Virus record (IMG/VR): IMGVR_UViG_3300046373_000069
Coordinates: 29,610-93,609 of that record
Length of the DNA stretch: 64,000 bases
Direction: 5' to 3' (one strand)
From: a virus
Part shown: positions 2,141-64,000 of the stretch, piece after piece
Layout of the letters: each line of letters starts with the position of its first letter
Numbering within the stretch: position 1 is the first letter of the stretch
The notes under the pieces: generated by a model
Seen by the model: only the letters and a program-made list of their open reading frames with translations
Told to the model about the DNA's origin: nothing
The model's database searches: none
Program-made: the position numbers and the translations under genes

Positions 2141-3037
2141 TTGGCTTTTGTATATTGGGTACACCTCCCTGAGCAATCGGACTTTACTTCACAAGGCTAT
2201 GTAGGCGTAACTGCCAGCACTGTAAATCACCGCTTTGCTGCTCACTGTAAGCTGTCGCGCAAGGGTTCTGAAACACACTTTCACCGTGCCCTTCGTAAGT
2301 ACGGTATTGAATCTTTTGTTGTAGATACGTTGGTTGAGGGGAGTGTGGAGTATTGCTTCATGGTTGAGAACCAGTTGCGCCCATCCCCGAACCTTGGTCT
2401 TAACATGGCGATTGGTGGCACTATCTCTCCTATGATTGGGCGAGGCCATAGTGAGGCGACGAAGGGCAAGATATCTGAGAAGTCAAAGCTTCATAGGCAC
2501 TCCGACGAAGCCAAAGCTAAAATTGGCGATAAACACCGGGGTAAAAAGGTCTCTGACGCTACCAAGGCACTTCTTTCCAAGTGCAGGCTAGGTGTTCCAA
2601 TCACTGACGAGCACAAGGCAAATATCTCTAAGGCACAGATGGGCCGCCGAAATTCTCCAGAGGCCATCGCAAAAACCGCAGCAGGTCTCCGTGGAAAGCC
2701 AAAAACAGAGGCTCACAAGCAGGCTATGTCCGCCGCAAGAAAAGGTGTACCACTAAGCGAAGAGCACTGCAAACGCTTGTCTGAGCGTGCTATTGAAGCT
2801 GGGCCGTGGAACAACCCGAAGGCAAATAAAGAAGTTTGGCAGAACGCAAAAGACCTCTTCTACTTGTCGCAGATGTACTGTGTCCCGTACATCGAAAGAC
2901 TTACAGGATTTACCAAGTCAAACCTGACAAGTATTTCACGTAAATTTGAGGACGGCTGGGTTCCGGAAGAGGACTCAAAATACCTCGCGTGGCTCGAAGA
3001 ATACAACAAACAAAAGGAGTGTCCTAATGGCACATGA
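2141..3037 (+). CDS. GIY-YIG homing endonuclease with NUMOD3 repeats
   Basis: A 298-residue free-standing homing-type endonuclease. The N-terminal GIY-YIG domain has VYW as the first motif and GYVGV as the second, then the conserved RALRKYG segment. About five NUMOD3 DNA-binding repeats follow (residues ~95-215, pattern G..S.E...K.S), then a C-terminal domain with a GPWNN motif. The start is TTG, 3 nt after the portal stop; the end overlaps the protease start by 11 nt. It is a full-length paralogue of the gene at 4403-5185. It probably acts in its own spread rather than in capsid assembly. Confidence 0.85.
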   Translation: MAFVYWVHLPEQSDFTSQGYVGVTASTVNHRFAAHCKLSRKGSETHFHRALRKYGIESFVVDTLVEGSVEYCFMVENQLRPSPNLGLNMAIGGTISPMIGRGHSEATKGKISEKSKLHRHSDEAKAKIGDKHRGKKVSDATKALLSKCRLGVPITDEHKANISKAQMGRRNSPEAIAKTAAGLRGKPKTEAHKQAMSAARKGVPLSEEHCKRLSERAIEAGPWNNPKANKEVWQNAKDLFYLSQMYCVPYIERLTGFTKSNLTSISRKFEDGWVPEEDSKYLAWLEEYNKQKECPNGT

Positions 3038-3875: not shown

Positions 3876-4401
3876 AGAATATCTGAAAAAGGTTTTTAAC
3901 ACAGCTCCGGCTGATAACAATGAGGAAGTCACGCAAATGACTGAACAACTAGAGCAGACCATCCCGGCTGCTGATAACACGGCAGTAGCGGAGATGGTGG
4001 CTAAACTGGCTTCCCAAACCGAACAACTCGCAACCCTACAAGCAGAACTGGCATCGCTTGCGACCAAATACGCAGCAGCAGAAGCAGCCCTCGCAGCCTC
4101 CGCAGAAGCGCAATCCATGCTTGTCGCCCAAGCAGCCGCTACCAAGATGGAAGCTCGCACAGCCTCGCTGTCGGCAATCTTGGGCGATGTTAAAGGTGTT
4201 GAGACGGCCACCCTGCTGTCGTCGCTGGACGATGCTGCCTTTGAAGCTGTGCGCGCAAGCTATGCGGCTAATTTTGAAGCAGAGGCAAAGTCGGAGAAAT
4301 TCACCGAGATTGGCGTCAGCGCTGAAGCTGTTGCCCCTGTCGAAAAAGACGCAGCAGCCCGCCTCGCCGAGAGCTTTGCCAAGCAATTCGCACAGAAGTA
4401 A
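3868..4401 (+). CDS. Head scaffolding protein
   Basis: A 177-residue, Ala/Glu-rich, mostly helical protein with a coiled-coil centre (residues ~45-105, QTEQLATLQAELASLATKY-type heptads). Directly follows the protease and precedes decoration and capsid genes, the position of a lambda Nu3-like scaffold. The ATG at 3868 overlaps the protease stop. Assignment rests on position and coiled-coil character, with no specific catalytic motif. Confidence 0.7.
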   Translation: MLKEYLKKVFNTAPADNNEEVTQMTEQLEQTIPAADNTAVAEMVAKLASQTEQLATLQAELASLATKYAAAEAALAASAEAQSMLVAQAAATKMEARTASLSAILGDVKGVETATLLSSLDDAAFEAVRASYAANFEAEAKSEKFTEIGVSAEAVAPVEKDAAARLAESFAKQFAQK

Positions 4402-4402
4402 C

Positions 4403-5185
4403 ATGCACAGTAAAAGCTGTGTTTATTGGATTAGAGCGCCGCACCATACAGACATCTTCACTGAAGGTTATGTTGGTGTGAGTGTTAAGGGCGCTACTAA
4501 GCGGTTCCGGGAACATAAGTGTGCTGCTAAAAGTGGTAGCGATCTCCCTGTCCACAACGCCATCAGGAAATACGGTAACGAAATCGTTATTGAGACTGTC
4601 CTGAACGGTGATCCAGAATACTGCTACCTGATGGAGGCCAAACTTAGGCCACACCCTCGTACTGGTTATAACGTATCCGCAGGCGGCGAGTCTACTAACC
4701 TTGGAAGTAAACATACCGTCGAAGCTAAGGCCAAGATGAGCGCTAAGTCTAAGGGCCGCTTCTGCTCTGAGGCCACTAGGAAGCTAATGTCTGAGCGAAG
4801 CAAAGGCAGACGACACACCGAAGAGACTAAAGAGGTGATGCGCCAGAAAGCTAAGGCTCGCGGTATGCCTGCCGAGGTCATCGCCAAAGCACGAGAGGTT
4901 GTGAAAAACATTCTTCCTTGGGATAGGTCGTCGGCAGATAAAAATATTTGGCTTGCCGCCGAGGAGATTTTCAAGTGCATGACAGACAATCCAGAGATGG
5001 GTACAAGATTGATGAGTCCCTTAGTAGGCTTCAGTTACAGTCAGCTTAGGGTTATTCATAAAAAGATTAAGGCAGGCTGGAATCCTTTAGAGGATACAGA
5101 ATGGCTTATTTTCAGCGGTAAGCTTTCACCAGATGCTTCTGGGGATAAGTCGCTTCAAAACGGCAATTCGCCAAATCAATATTAA
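4403..5185 (+). CDS. GIY-YIG homing endonuclease with NUMOD3 repeats (second copy)
   Basis: A 260-residue paralogue of the 2141-3037 gene. The N-terminus carries VYWIRAP and EGYVGVSV (GIY and YIG motifs), then AIRKYG and EYCYLMEAKLRPHP. About three NUMOD3 repeats follow (residues ~95-160), with a C-terminal domain containing LPWDR and GWNP blocks shared with its paralogue. The ATG is one base after the scaffold stop. A long open extension upstream in the same frame (to 4058) is the scaffold gene read out of frame. It sits between scaffold and decoration genes. Confidence 0.85.
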   Translation: MHSKSCVYWIRAPHHTDIFTEGYVGVSVKGATKRFREHKCAAKSGSDLPVHNAIRKYGNEIVIETVLNGDPEYCYLMEAKLRPHPRTGYNVSAGGESTNLGSKHTVEAKAKMSAKSKGRFCSEATRKLMSERSKGRRHTEETKEVMRQKAKARGMPAEVIAKAREVVKNILPWDRSSADKNIWLAAEEIFKCMTDNPEMGTRLMSPLVGFSYSQLRVIHKKIKAGWNPLEDTEWLIFSGKLSPDASGDKSLQNGNSPNQY

Positions 5186-29567: not shown

Positions 29568-29863
29568 TGGCCCAGTACGGCGGAGCAACATACCGCAACA
29601 ACAAAGTAGTGCTAGACCCAGCGGGAGGGGGTGGCATCTTTGTAGCTCGTGTGACATTCAACGACCAATACACTAGGTACACATACACCGATCTTGACAC
29701 TATGACTTTGTTCGGGTTCGACCTTACAGGCGGATATCACAACGTGGTGTATGGGAGGGACGGTAGCGGTTTTCCCTATGTAGAGGCAATGGGGTTCACC
29801 CCTGCACCGGACACCCCTAGTGGCCTAGACTACACAACCACAGTTGCGGTGTTTGCGAGATGA
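29567..29863 (+). CDS. Small tail-associated protein, unknown
   Basis: 98 residues, TAATG-coupled to the fibre gene and overlapping the next gene by 4 nt. Gly/aromatic-rich beta protein (YGGATYRNN, GGYHNVVYGRDG). No family recognised; the context suggests a fibre-tip or fibre-cap component. Confidence 0.6.
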   Translation: MAQYGGATYRNNKVVLDPAGGGGIFVARVTFNDQYTRYTYTDLDTMTLFGFDLTGGYHNVVYGRDGSGFPYVEAMGFTPAPDTPSGLDYTTTVAVFAR

Positions 29864-33619: not shown

Positions 33620-34039
33620 ATGGAAATCAACAGCCGTGACATCAATGATTTGACGCCAGAGATGGCTAAGCTCTGCAAGGAGTTTGTAGCACGCTGCAAG
33701 GCAGCGGGTATTGACGTTATTATCACGTCCACGTTTAGGGACAACTCTTCTCAAGCGGCCCTTTATGCACAAGGCCGTACAACGGCTGGAAAGAAAGTGA
33801 CGAATGCTCCCGCTGGAAGCAGCTACCACAACTACCGCATAGCGTTCGACTTCTGCCCTATCGTCAATGGCAAGGCGCAGTGGAACGACATTAACCTGTT
33901 TAAGAAGTGTGGTGCGATTGCTAAAGCGCTAGGACTAGAGTACGGCGGGGACTGGACAAGCTTTAAAGACTACCCACACGTTCAAGAGCGCGGGCACACT
34001 ATCGCAGAACTCAAGAAGCAATTTCCTAATGGGCGCTGA
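33620..34039 (+). CDS. Endolysin, M15 family L-Ala-D-Glu/D-Ala peptidase
   Basis: 139 residues, the usual size for single-domain phage VanY/M15 enzymes. Zinc site: SSYHNYRIAFDF (H70, D77) and FKDYPHVQ (H120), with TSTFRD before the first ligand. No signal peptide, so export should depend on the holin. AAGGAAACG precedes the ATG. Confidence 0.88.
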   Translation: MEINSRDINDLTPEMAKLCKEFVARCKAAGIDVIITSTFRDNSSQAALYAQGRTTAGKKVTNAPAGSSYHNYRIAFDFCPIVNGKAQWNDINLFKKCGAIAKALGLEYGGDWTSFKDYPHVQERGHTIAELKKQFPNGR

Positions 34040-34040
34040 T

Positions 34041-34271
34041 ATGACCAAATACCTAATTCCCGAATGGCGCAGCGCTTGGAAATTTGTTAGCGTCCAACTA
34101 GCAGCACTCCTCACACTTCTGCTCAGCCTTGAGCCTGTCGTCCCACAAATAACAGCGTACCTGCCACCTCACTATGCAGCCTACTTGAGCGCTGCTATCC
34201 TCGTTGCCCGTATTGTGCAGCAGGCGGTGACAGCTTCTAAAGAGGCTCATGATGTACCCAAAGATTCTTGA
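34041..34271 (+). CDS. Holin
   Basis: 76 residues from ATG 34041; an ATG at 34029 would add four residues (MGAD). Two hydrophobic segments (VQLAALLTLLLSL and AYLSAAILVARIV) and a charged C-terminus, next to the endolysin. Possible dual starts recall holin/antiholin pairs. Overlaps the i-spanin start. Confidence 0.72.
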   Translation: MTKYLIPEWRSAWKFVSVQLAALLTLLLSLEPVVPQITAYLPPHYAAYLSAAILVARIVQQAVTASKEAHDVPKDS

Positions 34272-34611
34272 AACTATCATCGCTATCGGCCTAATCGTCG
34301 GGGCTTGGTTCTACGCAGGCCACCGGGCAGTTGAGCAGTACAAAACTGAGCAACTAATCGAGCAGGCTTTTGCTACGAAGGCTCAGCAGGATAAATATGA
34401 CGCTCTCGCTGCCGACTACGAAACACTTAAAACGAAGAGAGAAAGCGATGCCAAAGTTATTATTCGACAAGTTGAAAAGGCTATTGCTGGCGACGTTATT
34501 TACCGTAACGTTTGCATCTCAGATAGCGGCTTGCAGCTCGCCAACCAAGCTCTCGCAGGCAAAGGTGCCGCCAGCGCTGATGCAAAAGTGCCCAGCCCTG
34601 ACACCCCTTGA
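34249..34611 (+). CDS. i-spanin (Rz-like)
   Basis: 120 residues; two consecutive ATGs (34249, 34252). An N-terminal membrane anchor (TIIAIGLIVGAWFYAG) then a coiled coil (EQLIEQAFATKAQQDKYDAL, ending near ESDAKVII) and a short C-terminal tail. It spans the periplasm with the o-spanin to fuse membranes in the last step of Gram-negative lysis. It contains the whole 5' half of the o-spanin gene in another frame. Confidence 0.82.
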   Translation: MMYPKILETIIAIGLIVGAWFYAGHRAVEQYKTEQLIEQAFATKAQQDKYDALAADYETLKTKRESDAKVIIRQVEKAIAGDVIYRNVCISDSGLQLANQALAGKGAASADAKVPSPDTP

Positions 34612-34996: not shown

Positions 34997-35269
34997 TCAA
35001 TTACTCACAATTTCATCCAACACTTCAAACAAATCAGCCTGCGCCTTAGGCTCCTTCGTAGCCAGCTTATACTTCGCCTTCAAATACTTGTTCACATCCT
35101 TCTTCTCAAGCTTGGTGCTCTCCACAACAGACTCCACGACTTCCTTGAAGTCCTTCTTCAGTTCCTCAATAGCATCCAGAATACGATTCGACTCTTGCAC
35201 GTAGCCAAGGAACACCTTGCTGTCAATCGTAACGCTCACACCATTCACATCCATCGAAGTAACGCTCAT
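34997..35269 (-). CDS. Small helical protein, weakly T4 DsbA-like
   Basis: 90 residues from ATG 35269 (AAGGAAAA upstream); a longer in-frame extension to 35362 lies in the neighbouring gene and is discarded. Two-helix charged protein, with KKDFKEVVESVVESTKLEKK followed by KYLKAKYKLATKEPKA and LFEVLDEIVSN. The length and C-terminal pattern loosely recall the T4 DsbA double-strand DNA binder, a late-transcription helper; this is a weak resemblance. Confidence 0.6.
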   Translation of the reverse strand: MSVTSMDVNGVSVTIDSKVFLGYVQESNRILDAIEELKKDFKEVVESVVESTKLEKKDVNKYLKAKYKLATKEPKAQADLFEVLDEIVSN

Positions 35270-35280
35270 TTGTGTTTTCC

Positions 35281-35565
35281 TTAAAAAGTAGTAGGTTGTG
35301 CAACAGCGCGGGTAAGTTTCATGAAGCCAGTTTGCAAGTCGTCTTTTGCACGCTGAAGCCATACGAAAGGCTGCACCTCCATCAATCGTGTGTGTTCAAC
35401 TGTGTCGTACTCGTATGCCTCTTCCCACTGAGCATTGAGGGCAGTATCCACGTTCTCCACGAGCTTACCTACAATAACTGCAATCGCCTTAATCTCATTC
35501 ATCAGAGCAATCTCTTCAGCCGACAAATCTCGATAGCCTTTAATCATTTTGTGTTGGTTGTCCAT
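35281..35565 (-). CDS. acb2: Acb2-like cyclic-nucleotide sponge (anti-CBASS)
   Basis: 94 residues. The N-terminal MDNQHKMIKGYRDLSAEEI and C-terminal DDLQTGFMKLTRAVAQP blocks are the signatures of the Acb2/Tad1-hairpin family, small helical hexamers that bind cyclic di- and trinucleotides and so block CBASS and related signalling defences. Y11 and K26, which I recall as ligand-contact positions in the PaMx33 protein, are present; residue 28 is Ile rather than Thr. Expressed from the minus-strand early operon, well placed for counter-defence. Family call is strong; activity is inferred. Confidence 0.82.
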   Translation of the reverse strand: MDNQHKMIKGYRDLSAEEIALMNEIKAIAVIVGKLVENVDTALNAQWEEAYEYDTVEHTRLMEVQPFVWLQRAKDDLQTGFMKLTRAVAQPTTF

Positions 35566-35584
35566 ATTATCCCTTTAGTTTAAA

Positions 35585-35776
35585 TTAACGAACCATCTTC
35601 AGTTTAGCCTTCGCCAGAATCCCATTCCCAATCCAGCTCAGCACAGGAATAATAATCATAGCAAGTGCCCCTGCCAAGATAATCCCTACAGCAATCAGCG
35701 CAGTCTCGAAGATGGACAGTACGAGGGCTGCGAGGAGTATATACGCCTTGCGGCTGAATAGTTTAAGCTTGTCCAT
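35585..35776 (-). CDS. Small two-helix membrane protein
   Basis: 63 residues with a basic start (MDKLKLFSRKAY), two hydrophobic stretches (~12-52) and a basic tail. It overlaps the upstream gene by 14 nt. Unknown function; could be an inner-membrane superinfection or host-takeover factor. Confidence 0.6.
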   Translation of the reverse strand: MDKLKLFSRKAYILLAALVLSIFETALIAVGIILAGALAMIIIPVLSWIGNGILAKAKLKMVR

Positions 35777-36176: not shown

Positions 36177-36719
36177 TTACATGCCGTGTCTTTCTGTATA
36201 ACCACACCCTTCTATTGACTTCGTACGAAACTCACAAGCCATTTTCAATGCAATTTCATACCCTAGGTTATCAATAGAGAAGTACTTGAATTTTTGCTTC
36301 ATGTCAACGTCACTCCATAACGCCCTCCAATACCTCCTCCCGCGCGTTTCTGTGCAGTTCACTCCGGTGACTCCGCTACGGTTATTGCTCTGTTTCATAC
36401 GGTTGCGACAATTAATTGAGTGAGTAGCAAGCCGCAAGTTCTCAATTTTGTTATTGCCTTTATTGCCATCTATGTGATCCACAAAAGTATCTTGTGGAAT
36501 ACTCCCGTTGAACATTTCCCAAATCACCCGATGAGCAACAGTTCGGTAACCCTTTACCATAACTGTGAAGTATCCAGCAGACGTCTTTCCACCTGCAACA
36601 GCACCTGCACGGTACTTCACTGTCTTACAGCCCCTACCACTATGTATGTCCACCAACCACCTCAAGCCCGTCCGAGAATTGGCATCATACACTAAGAAAT
36701 CGCTCCAGTTCACATGCAT
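36177..36719 (-). CDS. HNH homing endonuclease
   Basis: 180 residues from ATG 36719 (a GTG at 36728 is possible). N-terminal YDANSRTGLRWL, VAHRVIWEMFNG, then the HNH_3 core FVDHIDGNKGNNKIENLRLA and a C-terminal AP2-like DNA-binding part (GVTGVNCTETRGRRYWRA). It starts within the last codons of nrdA (10-nt overlap), so it sits exactly behind the reductase gene. Free-standing homing type. Confidence 0.85.
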   Translation of the reverse strand: MHVNWSDFLVYDANSRTGLRWLVDIHSGRGCKTVKYRAGAVAGGKTSAGYFTVMVKGYRTVAHRVIWEMFNGSIPQDTFVDHIDGNKGNNKIENLRLATHSINCRNRMKQSNNRSGVTGVNCTETRGRRYWRALWSDVDMKQKFKYFSIDNLGYEIALKMACEFRTKSIEGCGYTERHGM

Positions 36720-38446
36720 GAGGAACACTCGCTACTACTGCTAACAACACCACGACTACTGTACACGTAATATAAACTCAAGATGTTCTCGTTCTGGAAA
36801 GCCTCTTGGTGGATTTCCGAGATGAGCTTCTCATCGGCGTTACCTGCGAAGAACAAATTGGTACTCTGTCCTTGGTCAATGTAACGTTGCCGTGTAGCCG
36901 CAAGACGAAGAATGTCCTTCTGGTTAATCTCAAAGGCAGTTTTGAACACCCTCTTCTCGTCATCTGTCAACCAAGTTACGTTCTGCACACTGCCTTGGCT
37001 CTGCACGGTATCCTTGATACAGGCCTCGATATCCAACCCCTTACTCTTGATGAGGGCGAGCAATGTCGGGTTGACACGATCTACTTCACCAGCAGCAGTA
37101 AGTTGTGTGAAGCTCATTGCTACGTCAGGGTTAATACCTTCACTGATACCCCCATAGATAAGAGCAGTACTCTTAGTTGGTGCAACAGCCATACGGTGCG
37201 TGAATCGTACACCATGCCCTTTACACCACTCCGGCTCGCCCAACTCTTTAGCAAGCCACTGAGAAGCCTTCAAAGACTCACTATCGATGTGCTTGAAGAT
37301 ACGGCCATTAAATAAGTGGGTGTCCATGCCACCCCATTCAAAACCGTGCTCTTGCAAGTAGGTGTGGAAGCCACCTGCCCCAAGTCCAATTGCGCGACCT
37401 TTCTCTGTCGATGCAACGGCTTTTTCCATGCCCCGAATCTTACGTGCCTGCTCAAGAAACTCCGACACTACGCAATCAAGGAATACGGTTGCAACAAATA
37501 CTGCGTCAGTGTTTTCCCACTCGTCAGCTTTAGCCAGATTCATCCACGACAGCACGCAAGTATAGGTGTGGTCAAGGTCACTGTGCAAGAAGATTTCCGA
37601 GCAAAGCTGGCTCGCCTTCACCATCAGCCCCAAATCCTTGTACATCTCAGGGCGCTGGCGATTCACCTTGTCGACAAAGAAGAAGTACCCTTTACCGAAG
37701 ATCATCTTGGCCTTCAAGGCGCGCTGGTAACGCTTGGTTGCTTCCTTGTTGCCCTTCTGGAGCTTCGAGATAAACTTGTCCGTAACGATCCAACCGATGT
37801 TCAGGTCGTCCGGTTGCTCTTCCATGTATTGCACAACTTCCCAGAAATCCCCGTGATTGATGTCGAGATAACCGGCCCAAGCCCCACGTCGAGCAGTGCC
37901 TTGAGCCACGTCACGCATATCTTGCACAAAGTGCTTAATCACTGGCAGCACACCAGATGCTTTGCCACCTGCTGCGATAGGGCTACCACGCTTACGGATA
38001 CCCGACAAGTCAGAAGCCGTACCGAAGCCCTGCTTGGTCAGGATGGCGATTTCCCGGTAGGCATTGTAGAAACCCTCAATCGAATCCTCAACAACACTGC
38101 CTGCACAGCTCACAGGACAACCACGGCTTGTTCCCATATTGGCTAGGATTGGTGTAGAGCAGGCTACGTGGCCCGACCACAACACGTTAAAGAACTTCTC
38201 TTGCCAGTAGTCCTCAGTGCTCTCGCATACATCAAAGAAACTGTCACCACTGATTGGCACCTTAGGGGCATGCTTGGCTGCTGTCTTTGAGATGCGATAA
38301 AACTGTTCGTAAGGGTTCGCAGCCTGATACAAGTACTTCTGCTGAAACATCTGGTAGCCAGCAGTGCTCATCCACTCGGGGACAGTGCCATTCAATTGAC
38401 CTTGCTTGCGCTCTTCGCTAAGTTGCTCGTAAAGGTTTTCACTCAT
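36710..38446 (-). CDS. nrdA: Class I ribonucleotide reductase, large subunit
   Basis: 578 residues; reduces ribonucleotides to deoxyribonucleotides for phage DNA synthesis. Redox Cys in RGCPVSC and TYTCVLS, radical Cys in SQLCSEI, transfer tyrosines LYYVY, C-terminal swinging pair ECSSCM. The usual Asn of the NLCxEI motif is Gln here. Shorter than E. coli NrdA (~760) because the N-terminal ATP cone is missing, so dATP inhibition is probably absent. ATG at 38446 overlaps the nrdB stop by 8 nt; a longer in-frame extension lies inside nrdB. Confidence 0.88.
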   Translation of the reverse strand: MSENLYEQLSEERKQGQLNGTVPEWMSTAGYQMFQQKYLYQAANPYEQFYRISKTAAKHAPKVPISGDSFFDVCESTEDYWQEKFFNVLWSGHVACSTPILANMGTSRGCPVSCAGSVVEDSIEGFYNAYREIAILTKQGFGTASDLSGIRKRGSPIAAGGKASGVLPVIKHFVQDMRDVAQGTARRGAWAGYLDINHGDFWEVVQYMEEQPDDLNIGWIVTDKFISKLQKGNKEATKRYQRALKAKMIFGKGYFFFVDKVNRQRPEMYKDLGLMVKASQLCSEIFLHSDLDHTYTCVLSWMNLAKADEWENTDAVFVATVFLDCVVSEFLEQARKIRGMEKAVASTEKGRAIGLGAGGFHTYLQEHGFEWGGMDTHLFNGRIFKHIDSESLKASQWLAKELGEPEWCKGHGVRFTHRMAVAPTKSTALIYGGISEGINPDVAMSFTQLTAAGEVDRVNPTLLALIKSKGLDIEACIKDTVQSQGSVQNVTWLTDDEKRVFKTAFEINQKDILRLAATRQRYIDQGQSTNLFFAGNADEKLISEIHQEAFQNENILSLYYVYSSRGVVSSSSECSSCM

Positions 38447-39434
38447 CCGTAGTTGCCCATTCAAATTTTTGTTCATTCCAGCCACGCTGGTATTCTCGTC
38501 CGACGCCAGTGAAGAAATCAATCTGCTGGTAGCCTTGTGCCGATGTGTAGAACCAGCCCTCAATTGTCTCATCTTCGCACTCGAAACAAGGCTTCACGCC
38601 AAGTGCATCGAGACAGATGTTCACACGGTGAGCCACAAAGGACTTCATCTGTTTTGCCGTGATGCCTCGCAGCGGACCTTTCTCAAACAGCATATCAACA
38701 ATGCGGTGCTCATGTTCTAACAACTTCCCTGCGACAACTTCAATCTTGCCATACAATTCGTCCCATTCAATTGCCTTCAGCTTCGACTCTTTTACCACTT
38801 GTCGGAACAGTGCAGCACCTGCTTGTTGGTGTAAGCCCTCGTCAATCAGACTTTGGCTAATGCCGCGTACGGTGTTGCTGATAAGATTATTACCGTTACT
38901 CTGAAAGTTCTTAAACATAGCAAAGCTACTAAACAGAACAGCGCCTTCTAGCATACTGAACGTCGCAAGGCTCAGCAGGTCGTCTTGTCCGTCTACCACA
39001 CTATCAAGAAACTTAACACGGTCATTGAGCACAGGATCGTCAATGTAGCTGGTATAAAACTCTTCAGTGTTCAGGCCAAGCACCTCATTAAGCTTGTTGT
39101 AGAACGGTGCATGCACTGCCAGCTCCATCATACCGAACACAGATGCCATACGTTGAATCTCAGGGCGTGGGTACTGGTTCATAACACGGGTAAGCCAGTA
39201 TTCAGTGCCAACAAAGATTTCGTATTTAACGAATAGCTTAAGTGCAGTGGTGACAGCGTGCTTCTCAGCCTCAGTCATATTAACAAGCATGTCCTGCTTG
39301 TCTTTTTCCATCGCAATCTCGTTAGCAGTCCAGAAGCACTTCTCAAGCTGCGTGTCTGCAAACTCTACAAACTGCGGATAGTGGACGACATAACTATCAG
39401 TAGGCGTCTTAATTCGTGGCAGCTTTTTAGTCAT
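38439..39434 (-). CDS. nrdB: Class I ribonucleotide reductase, small (radical) subunit
   Basis: 331 residues. Four-helix ferritin-like diiron protein partnering NrdA. Ligand regions: EIFVGTEYW, MELAVHAPFYNKLNE and IDEGLHQQA. In the second the Glu and His are four apart rather than the common three, with Tyr following at APFY. Abuts the upstream gene (TAAATG) and overlaps nrdA by 8 nt, an operon guaranteeing balanced subunits. Confidence 0.88.
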   Translation of the reverse strand: MTKKLPRIKTPTDSYVVHYPQFVEFADTQLEKCFWTANEIAMEKDKQDMLVNMTEAEKHAVTTALKLFVKYEIFVGTEYWLTRVMNQYPRPEIQRMASVFGMMELAVHAPFYNKLNEVLGLNTEEFYTSYIDDPVLNDRVKFLDSVVDGQDDLLSLATFSMLEGAVLFSSFAMFKNFQSNGNNLISNTVRGISQSLIDEGLHQQAGAALFRQVVKESKLKAIEWDELYGKIEVVAGKLLEHEHRIVDMLFEKGPLRGITAKQMKSFVAHRVNICLDALGVKPCFECEDETIEGWFYTSAQGYQQIDFFTGVGREYQRGWNEQKFEWATTDE

Positions 39435-39975: not shown

Positions 39976-40488
39976 TTAGTATTCCTCTCCAACACCAAAG
40001 AAGTCCTCTGGCACACAATCAGCAATATCGACAGTAACAAAGTTAGTAGGCTTCATAATCTTTCCATCGTGCTCGCGCTTAAACACTACTCGACCATACT
40101 GCGTAAGATGTTGCTCCGCACCTTCTGGACACAATGAAGGGTCTACGTACAAACAGTAACCTTTGCACTCAGGAAACTTGCTGAGATTGTTTTCATTCAC
40201 ACGCTTGAGAGCCTCTTGAACATTAAAACCAGCAGCTTCAAGCTTCTGCATCAGACCTGCCACGGTTACAAACAAATCACAAGCACCATCAAGCAGTTCA
40301 ACAGCATCTGGAGTGGCTTCTTCTTGCCCACAGTCACAAGCCTCATGACCCAACGCTGCGGAGGCTTCGCACAGCTCTTCGTGGATAAAGTCCAGTTGTG
40401 AGTTAATACTCTTTGGAGTAACATTGGATAGATTGCCTGCAATACTGTTAAACTTCTTTACATCGTCGTAAGCTTGTTGGATGTTCAT
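39976..40488 (-). CDS. MazG-like all-alpha nucleoside triphosphate pyrophosphohydrolase
   Basis: 170 residues. EELCEA (EExxE) and ELLDGACDLFV (ExxD) supply the metal site of the all-alpha NTP-PPase superfamily; GFNVQEALKRVNENNLSKFP closes the domain. It may house-clean dNTPs or lower (p)ppGpp. Neighbour of the RNR genes. The ATG at 40488 opens the RNR part of the operon after a ~105-nt gap. Confidence 0.78.
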   Translation of the reverse strand: MNIQQAYDDVKKFNSIAGNLSNVTPKSINSQLDFIHEELCEASAALGHEACDCGQEEATPDAVELLDGACDLFVTVAGLMQKLEAAGFNVQEALKRVNENNLSKFPECKGYCLYVDPSLCPEGAEQHLTQYGRVVFKREHDGKIMKPTNFVTVDIADCVPEDFFGVGEEY

Positions 40489-49237: not shown

Positions 49238-51307
49238 TTATTGTATCACAAGTTTTTCGGCTTCAGCTACGTAATATTCGTAGTCGATATCACCAACATA
49301 ATCTTCAATGTCGTTACAAGGCTTCACCTTCCAAGCACTGTCAATCGACAACCTCCGCAGTTCACCACCCAGTTCAAGTGGTGGCATGATCTTCACCAAC
49401 TTACCACCAGACTTGCACGGATAGTATCGACAGATGTTTTGCAGCGTAACCTCCATGCCATCATCCTGCACAAGTACCAGACTGCTGCTACGAGGAACCT
49501 TTGTGCGCAACAGGAAGTCAAACTTCTCAGTGTGGTTCATAATAAACTCACGAACGTCTGTACCATACAACATCTTAGCTTCTGCTGCCATCGGAATAAC
49601 TAACGAAGAGTGGTTTTTGTGCCAGCCCAAATCCTTGTACTCGTAGGCACCTTTGTTCTTTGTTTTACCGTCTGTGTATAGAGCGATGTAGTTGTTCACG
49701 TCACGAATAAACATCTTATCGTAGTCAGCAAACTCCAATTGCAATCCAACTTGCTTCTCCCAAGATTGACAGATGGCGTCGTATTGCTCCTTTGCCCCAC
49801 GAGGTAATGCCACAGTCACACCATCAGTATTTACCTGAATCAGTTTCAAGTTCTCAATCTCAAGCAACTGCTCAGCGAGCAGACACAGGGAAAGCTGCCC
49901 GTTGATAGTAATTGCCATCGTGTACTTCGGATCGTAGAACGGACTGTACTGGTTGTTACTGTCACCGTACACACCATTCAGAGCCAACTTCAACATTGCG
50001 TTCTCGGCGGTTTTCTTACCATACGACTTTCGCTGCTCGTACACGTCCTTGTAAATCTCACAAAAACGCTTTGAGAGGTGTTCAGGGTACACACTGTTAG
50101 CAATTGCAATGTTTGGGTACATAGAGCTAACGTCTGCGTCAATAATCTGATACGCTTTCGTCTGCCGTGCGATCTTACTTGACAAGCTGCCGTGAATTCC
50201 TCCCGTGCCGAAGTCAAATCGGAATCCATCAATTACAACGTTTAAGTTCTCAGCAACACGCCAGCATGCCCAGTAGGAATACTGAGGAACGCCCTTCTTT
50301 TTGGCCTTCAACTCCACCTTGTCAAACCACCCACAAGGATGTTCACGTTTAAACTGGTCGTATTCGGTTCTGGTGGGTTCTGCTTTCCACTTCTTCTTCT
50401 TGACAACCATTTCAGCGTACTTGGCAACGTCATCAAGCTTGTGTTCTTCAATGTCGTTGAAAACCCCCTTCGTTTCGCGGATAACCTGTTTTGCAAGCCA
50501 ATCCTTCACTGCGATGAATTCAGGGCGTTTGAAGGTGTAGTAGTCGAACAGGCATTCCTTAATACGGATAACGTCACGCTTAGTCTGATTGAGTTTGCGC
50601 TTTCCGTCAACCATTTTATACACGGGAATTCGGGATTCCTCCAACTCCATGATAAAATAGTCCTTGCCAATCTTAGTATCATTGTGATTCATAAAGTCGC
50701 GCTGATACTTGGCAGTAAGCTGTTCACGAAACTCCACTTGACTAATACTGTGATTGTAGAATGCAAGCGTCATCTTAACATCGTGTGCGTTGTACTTCTT
50801 CAGCACTTCGATTTGGTCAGACTTCAATTCCATTCCGACAGGGAAAGGCAAATCTTCGATGTTCTTCTCTCGCATATTAAATTCGAGCATCTTCAAACTG
50901 GTCATCTTCGCTTTGTTGTCGAAGTGGTGAATCTTGAAGAGGTCGATCTGCTTCACGTAACGATCTTCTGTTTTTACAGTATTAGCGAAGTCACCCTTCA
51001 TGCTTTCGATTTGTTCTTGAGCAAACTTATAGACCCTTCGAGCAATCGTTTCGCCTTTGACTGGCAGTTTGTCACGTAAAGCAAGCAGCTTGTGCAATAC
51101 CGGATAGTCAAAATTGTTTCCGTTGAACGTAACCATAAAATCGCCCTCGTTGTGAAGGTAGTCCAGACAAGCGAAAACTCGGTGAATTTCGTTCTTGTAC
51201 GGACTCACTTCAAACGTGTTCGGAAACTTGCCGTCTGCACGGATGATGCTGAAAGTGAACGTGTTTGGAAAAGTCTCGATGTCAACAATCCATTTGGCAC
51301 CTGCCAT
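49238..51307 (-). CDS. Family B DNA polymerase with 3'-5' exonuclease
   Basis: 689 residues, replicative polymerase. Proofreading motifs WIVDIET, NGNNFDYPVL and YNAHDV lie in the first ~200 residues. Palm motifs: A DADVSSMYPN, B KLALNGVYG, C VNTDGV, where Asn replaces the first Asp of the usual DTD. Its start lies 26 nt inside the preceding homing-type gene. Works with the primase-helicase, SSB and ligase encoded nearby. Confidence 0.88.
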   Translation of the reverse strand: MAGAKWIVDIETFPNTFTFSIIRADGKFPNTFEVSPYKNEIHRVFACLDYLHNEGDFMVTFNGNNFDYPVLHKLLALRDKLPVKGETIARRVYKFAQEQIESMKGDFANTVKTEDRYVKQIDLFKIHHFDNKAKMTSLKMLEFNMREKNIEDLPFPVGMELKSDQIEVLKKYNAHDVKMTLAFYNHSISQVEFREQLTAKYQRDFMNHNDTKIGKDYFIMELEESRIPVYKMVDGKRKLNQTKRDVIRIKECLFDYYTFKRPEFIAVKDWLAKQVIRETKGVFNDIEEHKLDDVAKYAEMVVKKKKWKAEPTRTEYDQFKREHPCGWFDKVELKAKKKGVPQYSYWACWRVAENLNVVIDGFRFDFGTGGIHGSLSSKIARQTKAYQIIDADVSSMYPNIAIANSVYPEHLSKRFCEIYKDVYEQRKSYGKKTAENAMLKLALNGVYGDSNNQYSPFYDPKYTMAITINGQLSLCLLAEQLLEIENLKLIQVNTDGVTVALPRGAKEQYDAICQSWEKQVGLQLEFADYDKMFIRDVNNYIALYTDGKTKNKGAYEYKDLGWHKNHSSLVIPMAAEAKMLYGTDVREFIMNHTEKFDFLLRTKVPRSSSLVLVQDDGMEVTLQNICRYYPCKSGGKLVKIMPPLELGGELRRLSIDSAWKVKPCNDIEDYVGDIDYEYYVAEAEKLVIQ

Positions 51308-57322: not shown

Positions 57323-58033
57323 TTACGCATGCTCAAGCAGCGCTGCAAGGCTCACTGGGAAGTGTTGCCCCACAATGGTCTTGATACCATCAGCAACAAT
57401 TTGGCTTTCCTCCTGCGTGTGCGAGTCAAGGCGCAGAGAGAGCATCTTATGGAAAGCCTTAAGCGTGCCGCTCCAATACCACTCAGTCATCATGTCCGTA
57501 GGCAGAATAGCCCGTGCCTGTTCTGCACAGATACCCATCTTCAGTAGCTCTTCGTACGCTTCCAGAGCAACCTGAGCGGCGCTAAAGAAGATTCGGTGTG
57601 CAGATGCTTGCGTCATCTCATCAACTTCATCGCCACTACCTTGCTTCACATTCTCAGCGGCCCAACGGAAGTTCATCTCACCAAACTCTGGTTCAGTGTT
57701 GACATAGCGGCGGCTCACCTCGTTCCACGGCATGTACTCATGTTTCACAAGCTGGCGTGCTACGTAGAGCGGGGCCTTAACACGCACTGTAATGAACGTG
57801 TGGTTGAAAGGTGAGTAGTGTTTGTGCTTAGCAAGGTAGTTAATGAGCCGCTTATCACCGGCTGCTAGCACAGGTTCAAAATGTTCGTACCCGCAGTCAG
57901 GGTCATCCATTTCTGGAACACGCTCCCAGTCCCAATCACTCTCTTTGTCGAAGCTTACACGAGCCGACTGGACTACGCTCAAGTCAGTGCCGCAATGGTC
58001 AATATAGTCTACTTTAATATCCGCAATCTTCAT
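57323..58033 (-). CDS. thyX: Flavin-dependent thymidylate synthase
   Basis: 236 residues. Makes dTMP from dUMP using FAD, NADPH and methylene-tetrahydrofolate. Signature region KHEYMPWNEVSRRY replaces the usual RHRxxSxNExSxRY, keeping His, NE, S and RRY. HKHYSPFNH and the C-terminal LRLDSHTQEE also fit ThyX. Its first 20 nt overlap the end of the CapR-like gene. Confidence 0.86.
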   Translation of the reverse strand: MKIADIKVDYIDHCGTDLSVVQSARVSFDKESDWDWERVPEMDDPDCGYEHFEPVLAAGDKRLINYLAKHKHYSPFNHTFITVRVKAPLYVARQLVKHEYMPWNEVSRRYVNTEPEFGEMNFRWAAENVKQGSGDEVDEMTQASAHRIFFSAAQVALEAYEELLKMGICAEQARAILPTDMMTEWYWSGTLKAFHKMLSLRLDSHTQEESQIVADGIKTIVGQHFPVSLAALLEHA

Positions 58034-59210
58034 AATTATCCTGTTTCAAATGTTTATTTCTAACAAAGTCTACTAAGTCGTCATAGAGTTCATAGTGTGT
58101 TGCTTCTGTCTTAAACCCTTCAATGCTCTGAGGGACTACCTCAAACAGTTGTTTCAGTTCTGTTTCAATTCCTCGTGCAATATCTCCGTCAAATTTAAAC
58201 ACCTCAGACTCGGTGATCGTGCATCCGACCTTCCTTGCTCCGTTTTTGTGGTCGTTCAACCTTCTTTTAGGTGTGTTCGATATCCCGTAACCTGCAAACG
58301 GGGTTTCGCCCTCAAATTTTAACACATATAAGAAACCTGTTTTATGATCTTTGTAACCTGTTGTGTTACATTTACTGCACCACATATCGTGATTAAGATG
58401 CCATACAGTAGTCTCCCACTCTTCCTGATGCACATTGCACCACACCCGTATCGTACTGTTTGTCACAGAAGAACTCTTTTTGCCCCAACTAATAAACTCG
58501 AAATTAGGTCTATCTACTAGGAGTTTACTTACATCATACTCAGCTTGAGAATGAGTCCAATTTTGTTTGTGAGAACATCTGCAAGATTTGATGCCCTTAC
58601 CAAGACGTTGTCTGTCAGACTTGAATACTCCACTACAAAGACCTTCAGTCACGTACTCATCCTTGCTGCACTTTCCGCAGGTGTACTCCCACTGCTTTCT
58701 ACCGACTCTTTTAAAAATCGTCCCTTCGGCGAACGCTCCAGTAGACGTGAAGTCTGTGATGTACTCCTCAGTAGTTCTGCTCTTGCTGTCAGACATCCTC
58801 TCCGTCTTACAAGTAGGGCAAGAGCTTCCCTTGTCTAAAAAGCTGTACAAACGTGTGTTTGCCCAACGAACTCCGTGTTTGGTACAAGTAAGGTCTAAAA
58901 ATGTATTGTTAAACTTCCAATCTCCAACGAAGCCGTTAAAAGTGTATCCACGAGTTTGGCAAGCCCTATTTACTCTGACAACATATTGCTCTTTAGTCCA
59001 ATGTACAGCAGGGCTGCACCCACAAGGTAAAGTCGCCCTCAATATTGATTGCTTTGGCACTATGTACTCTGCCGCACCAAATAACTCAGGGTCTGTTGCG
59101 CAGGCGTGGCACTTGACACGCAACAGTCTAGAGCCGTTAGAAGCTATCGTACCGCTCCAACCAAGAACCTCCAGCTGATCACTACCCCCGTACCGTGCCC
59201 CCTCTTTCAC
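58014..59210 (-). CDS. CapR-like, zinc-binding homing endonuclease-type protein with GIY-YIG C-terminus
   Basis: 398 residues. Repeated zinc-binding modules with paired Cys (CHAC, CPTC, CGKC, CRCSHK, CSKC) of the type seen in CapR-homology and DUF723 proteins. The C-terminal ~95 residues have FLYVLKF and GYGISNTPKRRLNDHK, a GIY-YIG/T5orf172-like end. Overlaps the small paralogue upstream by 4 nt and thyX downstream by 20 nt. Likely a selfish nuclease. Confidence 0.75.
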   Translation of the reverse strand: MKEGARYGGSDQLEVLGWSGTIASNGSRLLRVKCHACATDPELFGAAEYIVPKQSILRATLPCGCSPAVHWTKEQYVVRVNRACQTRGYTFNGFVGDWKFNNTFLDLTCTKHGVRWANTRLYSFLDKGSSCPTCKTERMSDSKSRTTEEYITDFTSTGAFAEGTIFKRVGRKQWEYTCGKCSKDEYVTEGLCSGVFKSDRQRLGKGIKSCRCSHKQNWTHSQAEYDVSKLLVDRPNFEFISWGKKSSSVTNSTIRVWCNVHQEEWETTVWHLNHDMWCSKCNTTGYKDHKTGFLYVLKFEGETPFAGYGISNTPKRRLNDHKNGARKVGCTITESEVFKFDGDIARGIETELKQLFEVVPQSIEGFKTEATHYELYDDLVDFVRNKHLKQDNYEDCGY

Positions 59211-63700: not shown

Positions 63701-64000
63701 AACGTACTACAGCAAAACCCAGCCCTCCAGCTTCAGCGAGGGCTGTCCCCGCCAGCATACCTTTCCAGAAAGCAACATTGCTCAGAATCAACATAAATGT
63801 TGCTCTAAATCAATTCACAATTTCCTTCTGGCAACACCCTGCCACGCCCCTCGCAGGGCTGTATTTACAAGGGAATTTGAACGACTCTCCCTCTTCTTCA
63901 ATATCGTGCAAGCCCAGCTGAAATACAAGCTATAAAAATATATTCTTTGCCGCATCTTTCTGTGCGTGCTCGGGTTGTGTTCCTGTAATGTTGCTGTATA
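63701..64000. other. Non-coding end of window
   Basis: A perfect CAGCCCTC/GAGGGCTG inverted repeat (around 63720-63746) follows the last gene but lacks a T-run on this strand; it could be a weak terminator. No convincing gene, tRNA or promoter was seen beyond it. The early region presumably continues past 64000. Confidence 0.4.

Follow-up and report, generated by a model that had tools for sequence, protein, structure and literature searches.

An Acb2-family predicted nucleotide sponge with an altered patch outside its dinucleotide pocket in a group of phages akin to Pseudomonas myoviruses

The window analysed here, a stretch of 64,000 nucleotides from the IMG/VR virus record IMGVR_UViG_3300046373_000069 (positions 29,610 to 93,609), carries a real open reading frame for a 94-aa protein at 35565-35281, which we call acb2. 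The gene lies in a tight minus-strand run composed of nrdB, nrdA, an HNH/AP2 endonuclease gene, two small genes, acb2 itself, a 90-aa gene, and possibly a 65-aa gene, and this run converges on a plus-strand cassette of endolysin, holin, and spanin genes. The main features of the locus are the following (window positions):

38439 to 39434, minus strand: nrdB, ribonucleotide reductase small chain (Pfam/PHROG)
36710 to 38572, minus strand: nrdA, ribonucleotide reductase large chain, upstream in the acb2 run (Pfam/PHROG)
36177 to 36728, minus strand: HNH (and AP2-like) endonuclease (Pfam/PHROG)
35585 to 35776, minus strand: gene for a 63-aa hydrophobic (membrane-like) protein, directly upstream of acb2
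35570 to 35576, minus strand: ribosome-binding-site-like AAAGGGA, 4 bases 5' of the acb2 ATG (read from the sequence)
35281 to 35565, minus strand: acb2, Acb2 (Vs.4/p26) family, predicted cyclic-oligonucleotide sponge of 94 aa (start ATG 35565-35563; stop 35283-35281)
34997 to 35269, minus strand: 90-aa gene, protein start MSVTSMDV, directly downstream of acb2 (PHROG 639, transcriptional regulator, matched weakly)
33620 to 34611, plus strand: lysis cassette of endolysin, holin, and Rz-like spanin

The start of the endonuclease gene and the end of nrdA overlap, which would be expected for a mobile endonuclease gene, and two homing-endonuclease-like genes (2141-3037 and 4058-5185) lie near the portal gene (PHROG 314). 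Proximity of acb2 to ribonucleotide reductase genes is also seen in Aeromonas phage 25 (locus L014, 4998-7905), where acb2 is found directly upstream of nrdB and nrdA, compared to a few genes downstream of them in the window, and in L410, a locus on one of the related contigs described below, where homologues of nrdA/nrdB are found no more than about 5 kb from acb2. A MazG-like pyrophosphohydrolase is encoded at 39976-40488 (PHROG 671); Atd1, a MazG-like phage protein, has been named as a counter-defence in a review (PMC10419184), and this neighbour of acb2 may be a counter-defence candidate as well. Elsewhere in the window, a 398-aa protein with three stretches of CapR homology domain is encoded at 58014-59210 (PF21817, 8.5e-30), adjoined by a ThyX thymidylate synthase gene at 57323-58033.

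Membership of the 94-aa protein in the Acb2 family is secure because matches at the level of Pfam, PHROG, PDB chains, a shuffle-controlled profile, and the fold all agree. The protein matches the Pfam domain PF24729 (Acb2_Tad1_hairpin; E 9.8e-11, 42.1 bits at a cut-off of 27) and PHROG 717 (Vs.4 family; E 1.3e-22), which is the family applied to Vs.4 by Jenson et al. (PMC10097602). It is also matched by the PDB sequence chains of Acb2 p26 from phage PaP2/PaMx33 (E 5e-20), with an identity to PaMx33 Acb2 of approximately 46% over the full length, and a profile built from 113 homologues excluding the window protein scores it at 8.7e-32, compared to 0.09 for the best of 2000 shuffles. The AlphaFold (AF2) monomer model is all helix with a pLDDT of 92.4 and forms a helical hairpin plus a short N-terminal helix (helices 3-6, 15-52, 54-63, and 65-88 in a numbering that omits the first Met). 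Its top six PDB matches are Acb2 in apo form or with 3',3'-cGAMP (8h2j, 8h2x; TM 0.85-0.86), followed by T4 Vs.4 with cGAMP.

Acb2 (p26/gp24) of the Pseudomonas phages PaP2, PaMx33, and their kin (PDB 8h2j, 8h2x, 8h39, 8ixz) therefore has the same fold as our model, and PaMx33-type Acb2 shares with the window protein Y11, K26, and R85 (R86 here) as well as the GYRDLS and AQP blocks. The initial annotation had called the protein an Acb2-like sponge on the basis of an N-terminal HKMIKGYRDLS and a C-terminal LQTGFM..TRAVAQP block; both blocks do match Acb2, and family, fold, and ligand-contact residues all support the predicted function well. The hairpin turn is one residue longer in the window protein than in PaMx33-type Acb2. 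T4 Vs.4 (T4 Acb2, PDB 7uq2) is more distant, at 28% identity in the structural match, yet has the fold and the counterparts of Y8/K23/R79 in common with the window protein. The genomic settings are alike in that PaMx33-type acb2, the last gene of its run before a terminator, converges on structural genes, much as the window gene does on lysis genes. At the DNA level, the window phage is unrelated to PaP2/PaMx33-type phages. The family as such was already known, and the window protein adds one ordinary member to it.

In T4 Vs.4, cGAMP is contacted by Y8, H11, K23, R79, and F82 (Jenson et al., PMC10097602), and three of these residues, Y8, K23, and R79, align with Y11, K26, and R86 of the window protein. 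The corresponding codons, assigned by alignment with the roles taken from PMC10097602, are:

35533 to 35535, minus strand: Y11 codon (T4 Vs.4 Y8, cGAMP stacking there)
35488 to 35490, minus strand: K26 codon (T4 Vs.4 K23, cGAMP contact there)
35308 to 35310, minus strand: R86 codon (T4 Vs.4 R79, cGAMP contact there)

All three residues are near-invariant across 297 homologues, with Tyr at position 11 in 295 and Lys at position 26 in 296 of them, and the earlier statement that Y11 and K26 are kept thus holds. The other two contacts of the T4 protein, H11 and F82, correspond to Leu14 and Ala89 here, and PaMx33 Acb2 is identical at these positions (Leu14, Ala88). Ala is found at position 89 in 111 of 115 homologues and an aromatic residue in T4 only, and judging from these sequences an aromatic residue at the position of T4 F82 is no defining trait of the Acb2 family at large. 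The dinucleotide pocket thus looks like that of PaMx33 Acb2, because Y11, K26, and R86 are kept and Leu14/Ala89 are the same as in PaMx33; the PaP2 counterpart of PaMx33 Acb2 was crystallised with cGAMP (8h2j). As for the assembly, S74N in T4 Vs.4 disturbs binding, and the hexamer interfaces include L29, A66, A73, and A77 (PMC10097602), which correspond to V32, A73, G80, and L84 in the window protein by alignment, the model being of the monomer only.

On this basis it is very probable that the 94-aa protein acts as a nucleotide sponge of the Acb2 family. By analogy with T4 Vs.4 and PaMx33 Acb2, from which we infer its hexameric state, ligand binding, timing, and counter-defence role, this small helical-hairpin protein would be produced during infection and assemble as a hexamer. 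Cyclic dinucleotides such as 3',3'-cGAMP would then be held tightly, without being cut, between the N- and C-terminal ends of two subunits, so that CBASS effectors would stay off and the infected cell would live long enough for phage production.

The initial annotation had placed a Thr at position 28 of Acb2 and proposed that the Ile found here might shift ligand preference. This residue is Leu28 in PaMx33 Acb2, T4 Vs.4 aligns an Ala, and among the 297 homologues the position is Lys in 135, Leu in 93, His in 15, Glu in 12, Ile in 11, Gln in 11, Met in 6, Ala in 5, and Thr in 4, with a few others. A role of Thr28 as a specificity residue was therefore rejected, and Ile28, present in 6 of the first 115 homologues and unremarkable, is uninformative on ligand choice because the position varies within the family and the proposed Thr is absent from the reference protein. 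The departures of the window protein from its family instead sit at positions 68 and 75; PaMx33 R67, I71, and T74 correspond to V68, R72, and D75:

35362 to 35364, minus strand: V68 codon (family: Arg; PaMx33 R67; alignment and homologue counts)
35350 to 35352, minus strand: R72 codon, an Arg one helical turn past the lost R67 (homologue counts)
35341 to 35343, minus strand: D75 codon (family: Thr; PaMx33 T74, T4 T68; alignment and homologue counts)

Among the first 115 homologues, 107 have Arg at window position 68 and 99 have Thr at position 75, and T75 is missing from 6 of the 8 proteins without R68 compared to 10 of the 107 with it. This coupling was written down before a second set of 180 distinct homologues was newly fetched. 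In the new set, R68 is missing from 32 of 180 proteins, and T75 is lost in 24 of these 32 versus 11 of the 148 with R68 (Fisher 6e-15, a value that ignores shared descent). Across the family, R68 and T75 thus tend to be lost together. A first tree had indicated three independent co-losses of R68 and T75; this count is weakened for the window lineage, as its protein clusters with further R68-less proteins from phages. Over both sets, an Arg at window position 71/72 occurs in 18 of 40 R68-less proteins and in 0 of 255 others. The strict prediction that every R68-less homologue has an Arg at 71/72 failed in the new set (12/32), and the exclusive direction held there, with Arg at 71/72 and R68 found together in 0 of 148.

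In the AF2 model, residues 68-75 belong to the part of the last helix next to the hairpin turn, 11 to 18 residues along this helix from R86. PaMx33 R67 and T74 we take, from the Acb2-cA3 work, to be part of the cyclic-trinucleotide site of Acb2. Cyclic trinucleotides bind Acb2 at the channel ends at the trimer interface, apart from the dinucleotide site (PMC12043709), and T68M in Acb2 of a T4-like phage, at the position of T74, lowers binding affinity (PMC12657230). Since the 68/75 patch lies near the hairpin turn and apart from the dinucleotide pocket, the second site may bind cyclic trinucleotides (cA3, cAAG) differently or no longer at all, which would leave mainly a dinucleotide sponge; from the residues at hand, we regard this as a tentative reading that falls clearly short of an even chance.

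Another reading, to which we would give a little less than an even chance, is that the protein is an ordinary Acb2 that binds di- and trinucleotides alike, with V68, R72, and D75 being neutral or compensated and R72 replacing R67. The restriction of Arg at 71/72 to homologues that lost R68 looks compensatory, and T4 Vs.4 itself likewise aligns no Arg at the R67/68 position. However, simple replacement by R72 is not the rule, because 20 of the 32 new R68-less homologues lack an Arg at 71/72 and the loss of T75 accompanies that of R68.

The phages carrying this altered Acb2 were also compared at the genome level. The whole record comprises 93,609 bases and is probably a complete genome, since a 127-base stretch is identical at both ends (window 63874-64000 and L045 1-127). 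DNA-level relatives of it are almost absent from the phage collection. Its portal protein is 35-38% identical to those of Pseudomonas phages ventosus, UAVern, phiK7A1, and PAK_P1, and the exonuclease subunit of its DNA polymerase shares 47% identity with the KPP10-like counterpart. None of seven such portal/polymerase-type relatives (PAK_P1/KPP10-like) has a PF24729 hit above the cut-off, and a polymerase-like protein encoded at 49238-51307, used as a kin marker, was found in 0 of 12 records. Closer company comes from the IMG/VR contigs G116 (locus L412), G118 (L409), G119 (L410), and G120 (L411) of 55-86 kb, whose portals are 39-51% identical to that of the window phage and which carry acb2 in a like place, as does the shorter fifth contig G115 (L413) that gave no portal match. 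Endolysin/holin-like genes lie near acb2 on the opposite strand in 4 of these 5 contigs (by reading translations), and all five have a small coiled-coil-like gene after acb2, either directly or one gene later. Locus L409 is the closest of the five to the window; a counterpart of the 90-aa gene, 36% identical and matching PHROG 639, directly follows acb2 there, and L413 has a weaker counterpart.

The Acb2 proteins of G115, G116, G118, G119, and G120 are 44-56% identical to that of the window and are also without Arg at position 68, where K, Q, E, G, or D stands in place of the Val, and their hairpin turns are longer or shorter. Because all six Acb2 proteins are without this Arg, its loss is a property of the phage group and not of one sequence, and in a tree with many unresolved forks the six proteins are grouped inside a supported cluster of 21 rows.

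A further alternative is that the Acb2 fold was kept while the sponge is no longer useful, being either drifting or silenced, for example because Panoptes punishes cyclic-nucleotide sequestration. T4 mutants that have lost Acb2 are indeed selected by Panoptes, and damaged Acb2 is known from T4-like phages (PMC12657218, PMC12657230). The intact frame and ribosome site, the presence of all near-invariant residues, and the maintenance of the gene in six phage records, at a comparable position and with 44-56% identity, nevertheless make this explanation improbable. Least likely of all is that the protein is a small relative of Tad1 acting against Thoeris by gcADPR capture, since PF24729 does span the hairpin of Acb2 and Tad1 alike but Tad1 has an N-terminal antiparallel beta-sheet ahead of its two C-terminal helices (PMC12043709), a domain absent from the 94-aa, all-helix window protein, and Tad1 membership was rejected given that the AF2 model has no strand and that the solved-structure matches are Acb2 and Vs.4.

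As to the hosts, relatives of the window phage infect Pseudomonas. The initial annotation had further deduced CBASS, Thoeris, or type III CRISPR signalling in the hosts, for which we find no support: a SMODS CD-NTase over the cut-off was no commoner in Acb2-bearing genomes (4 of 50) than in background genomes (5 of 60), and the proposal that Acb2-bearing hosts are enriched for CBASS was dropped, with the comparison being a weak test that used one genome per species, a background from a single family, and a SMODS domain that covers only some CD-NTases. Tad1 and Tad2 have been credited with capturing gcADPR, the Thoeris signal, and Acb2 with capturing cyclic di- and trinucleotides (PMC12043709).

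These findings put acb2 in a group of relatives of the Pseudomonas PAK_P1/KPP10-like myoviruses and provide a set of natural Acb2 variants altered at two coupled residues that lie outside the dinucleotide pocket. Our tentative view, held with less than even confidence, is that in this group of phages of ca. 84-94 kb the trinucleotide site of Acb2 may have been dismantled or re-shaped, with joint loss of R67 and T74 and sometimes an Arg one turn on, leaving a sponge for dinucleotides or for a different ring. The pressure behind a re-shaped second site would perhaps be host signals or Panoptes-type guards. If these proteins are indeed dinucleotide-only sponges, the two activities of Acb2 would be separated in them, and this would offer a clue to the host signals that these phages meet.
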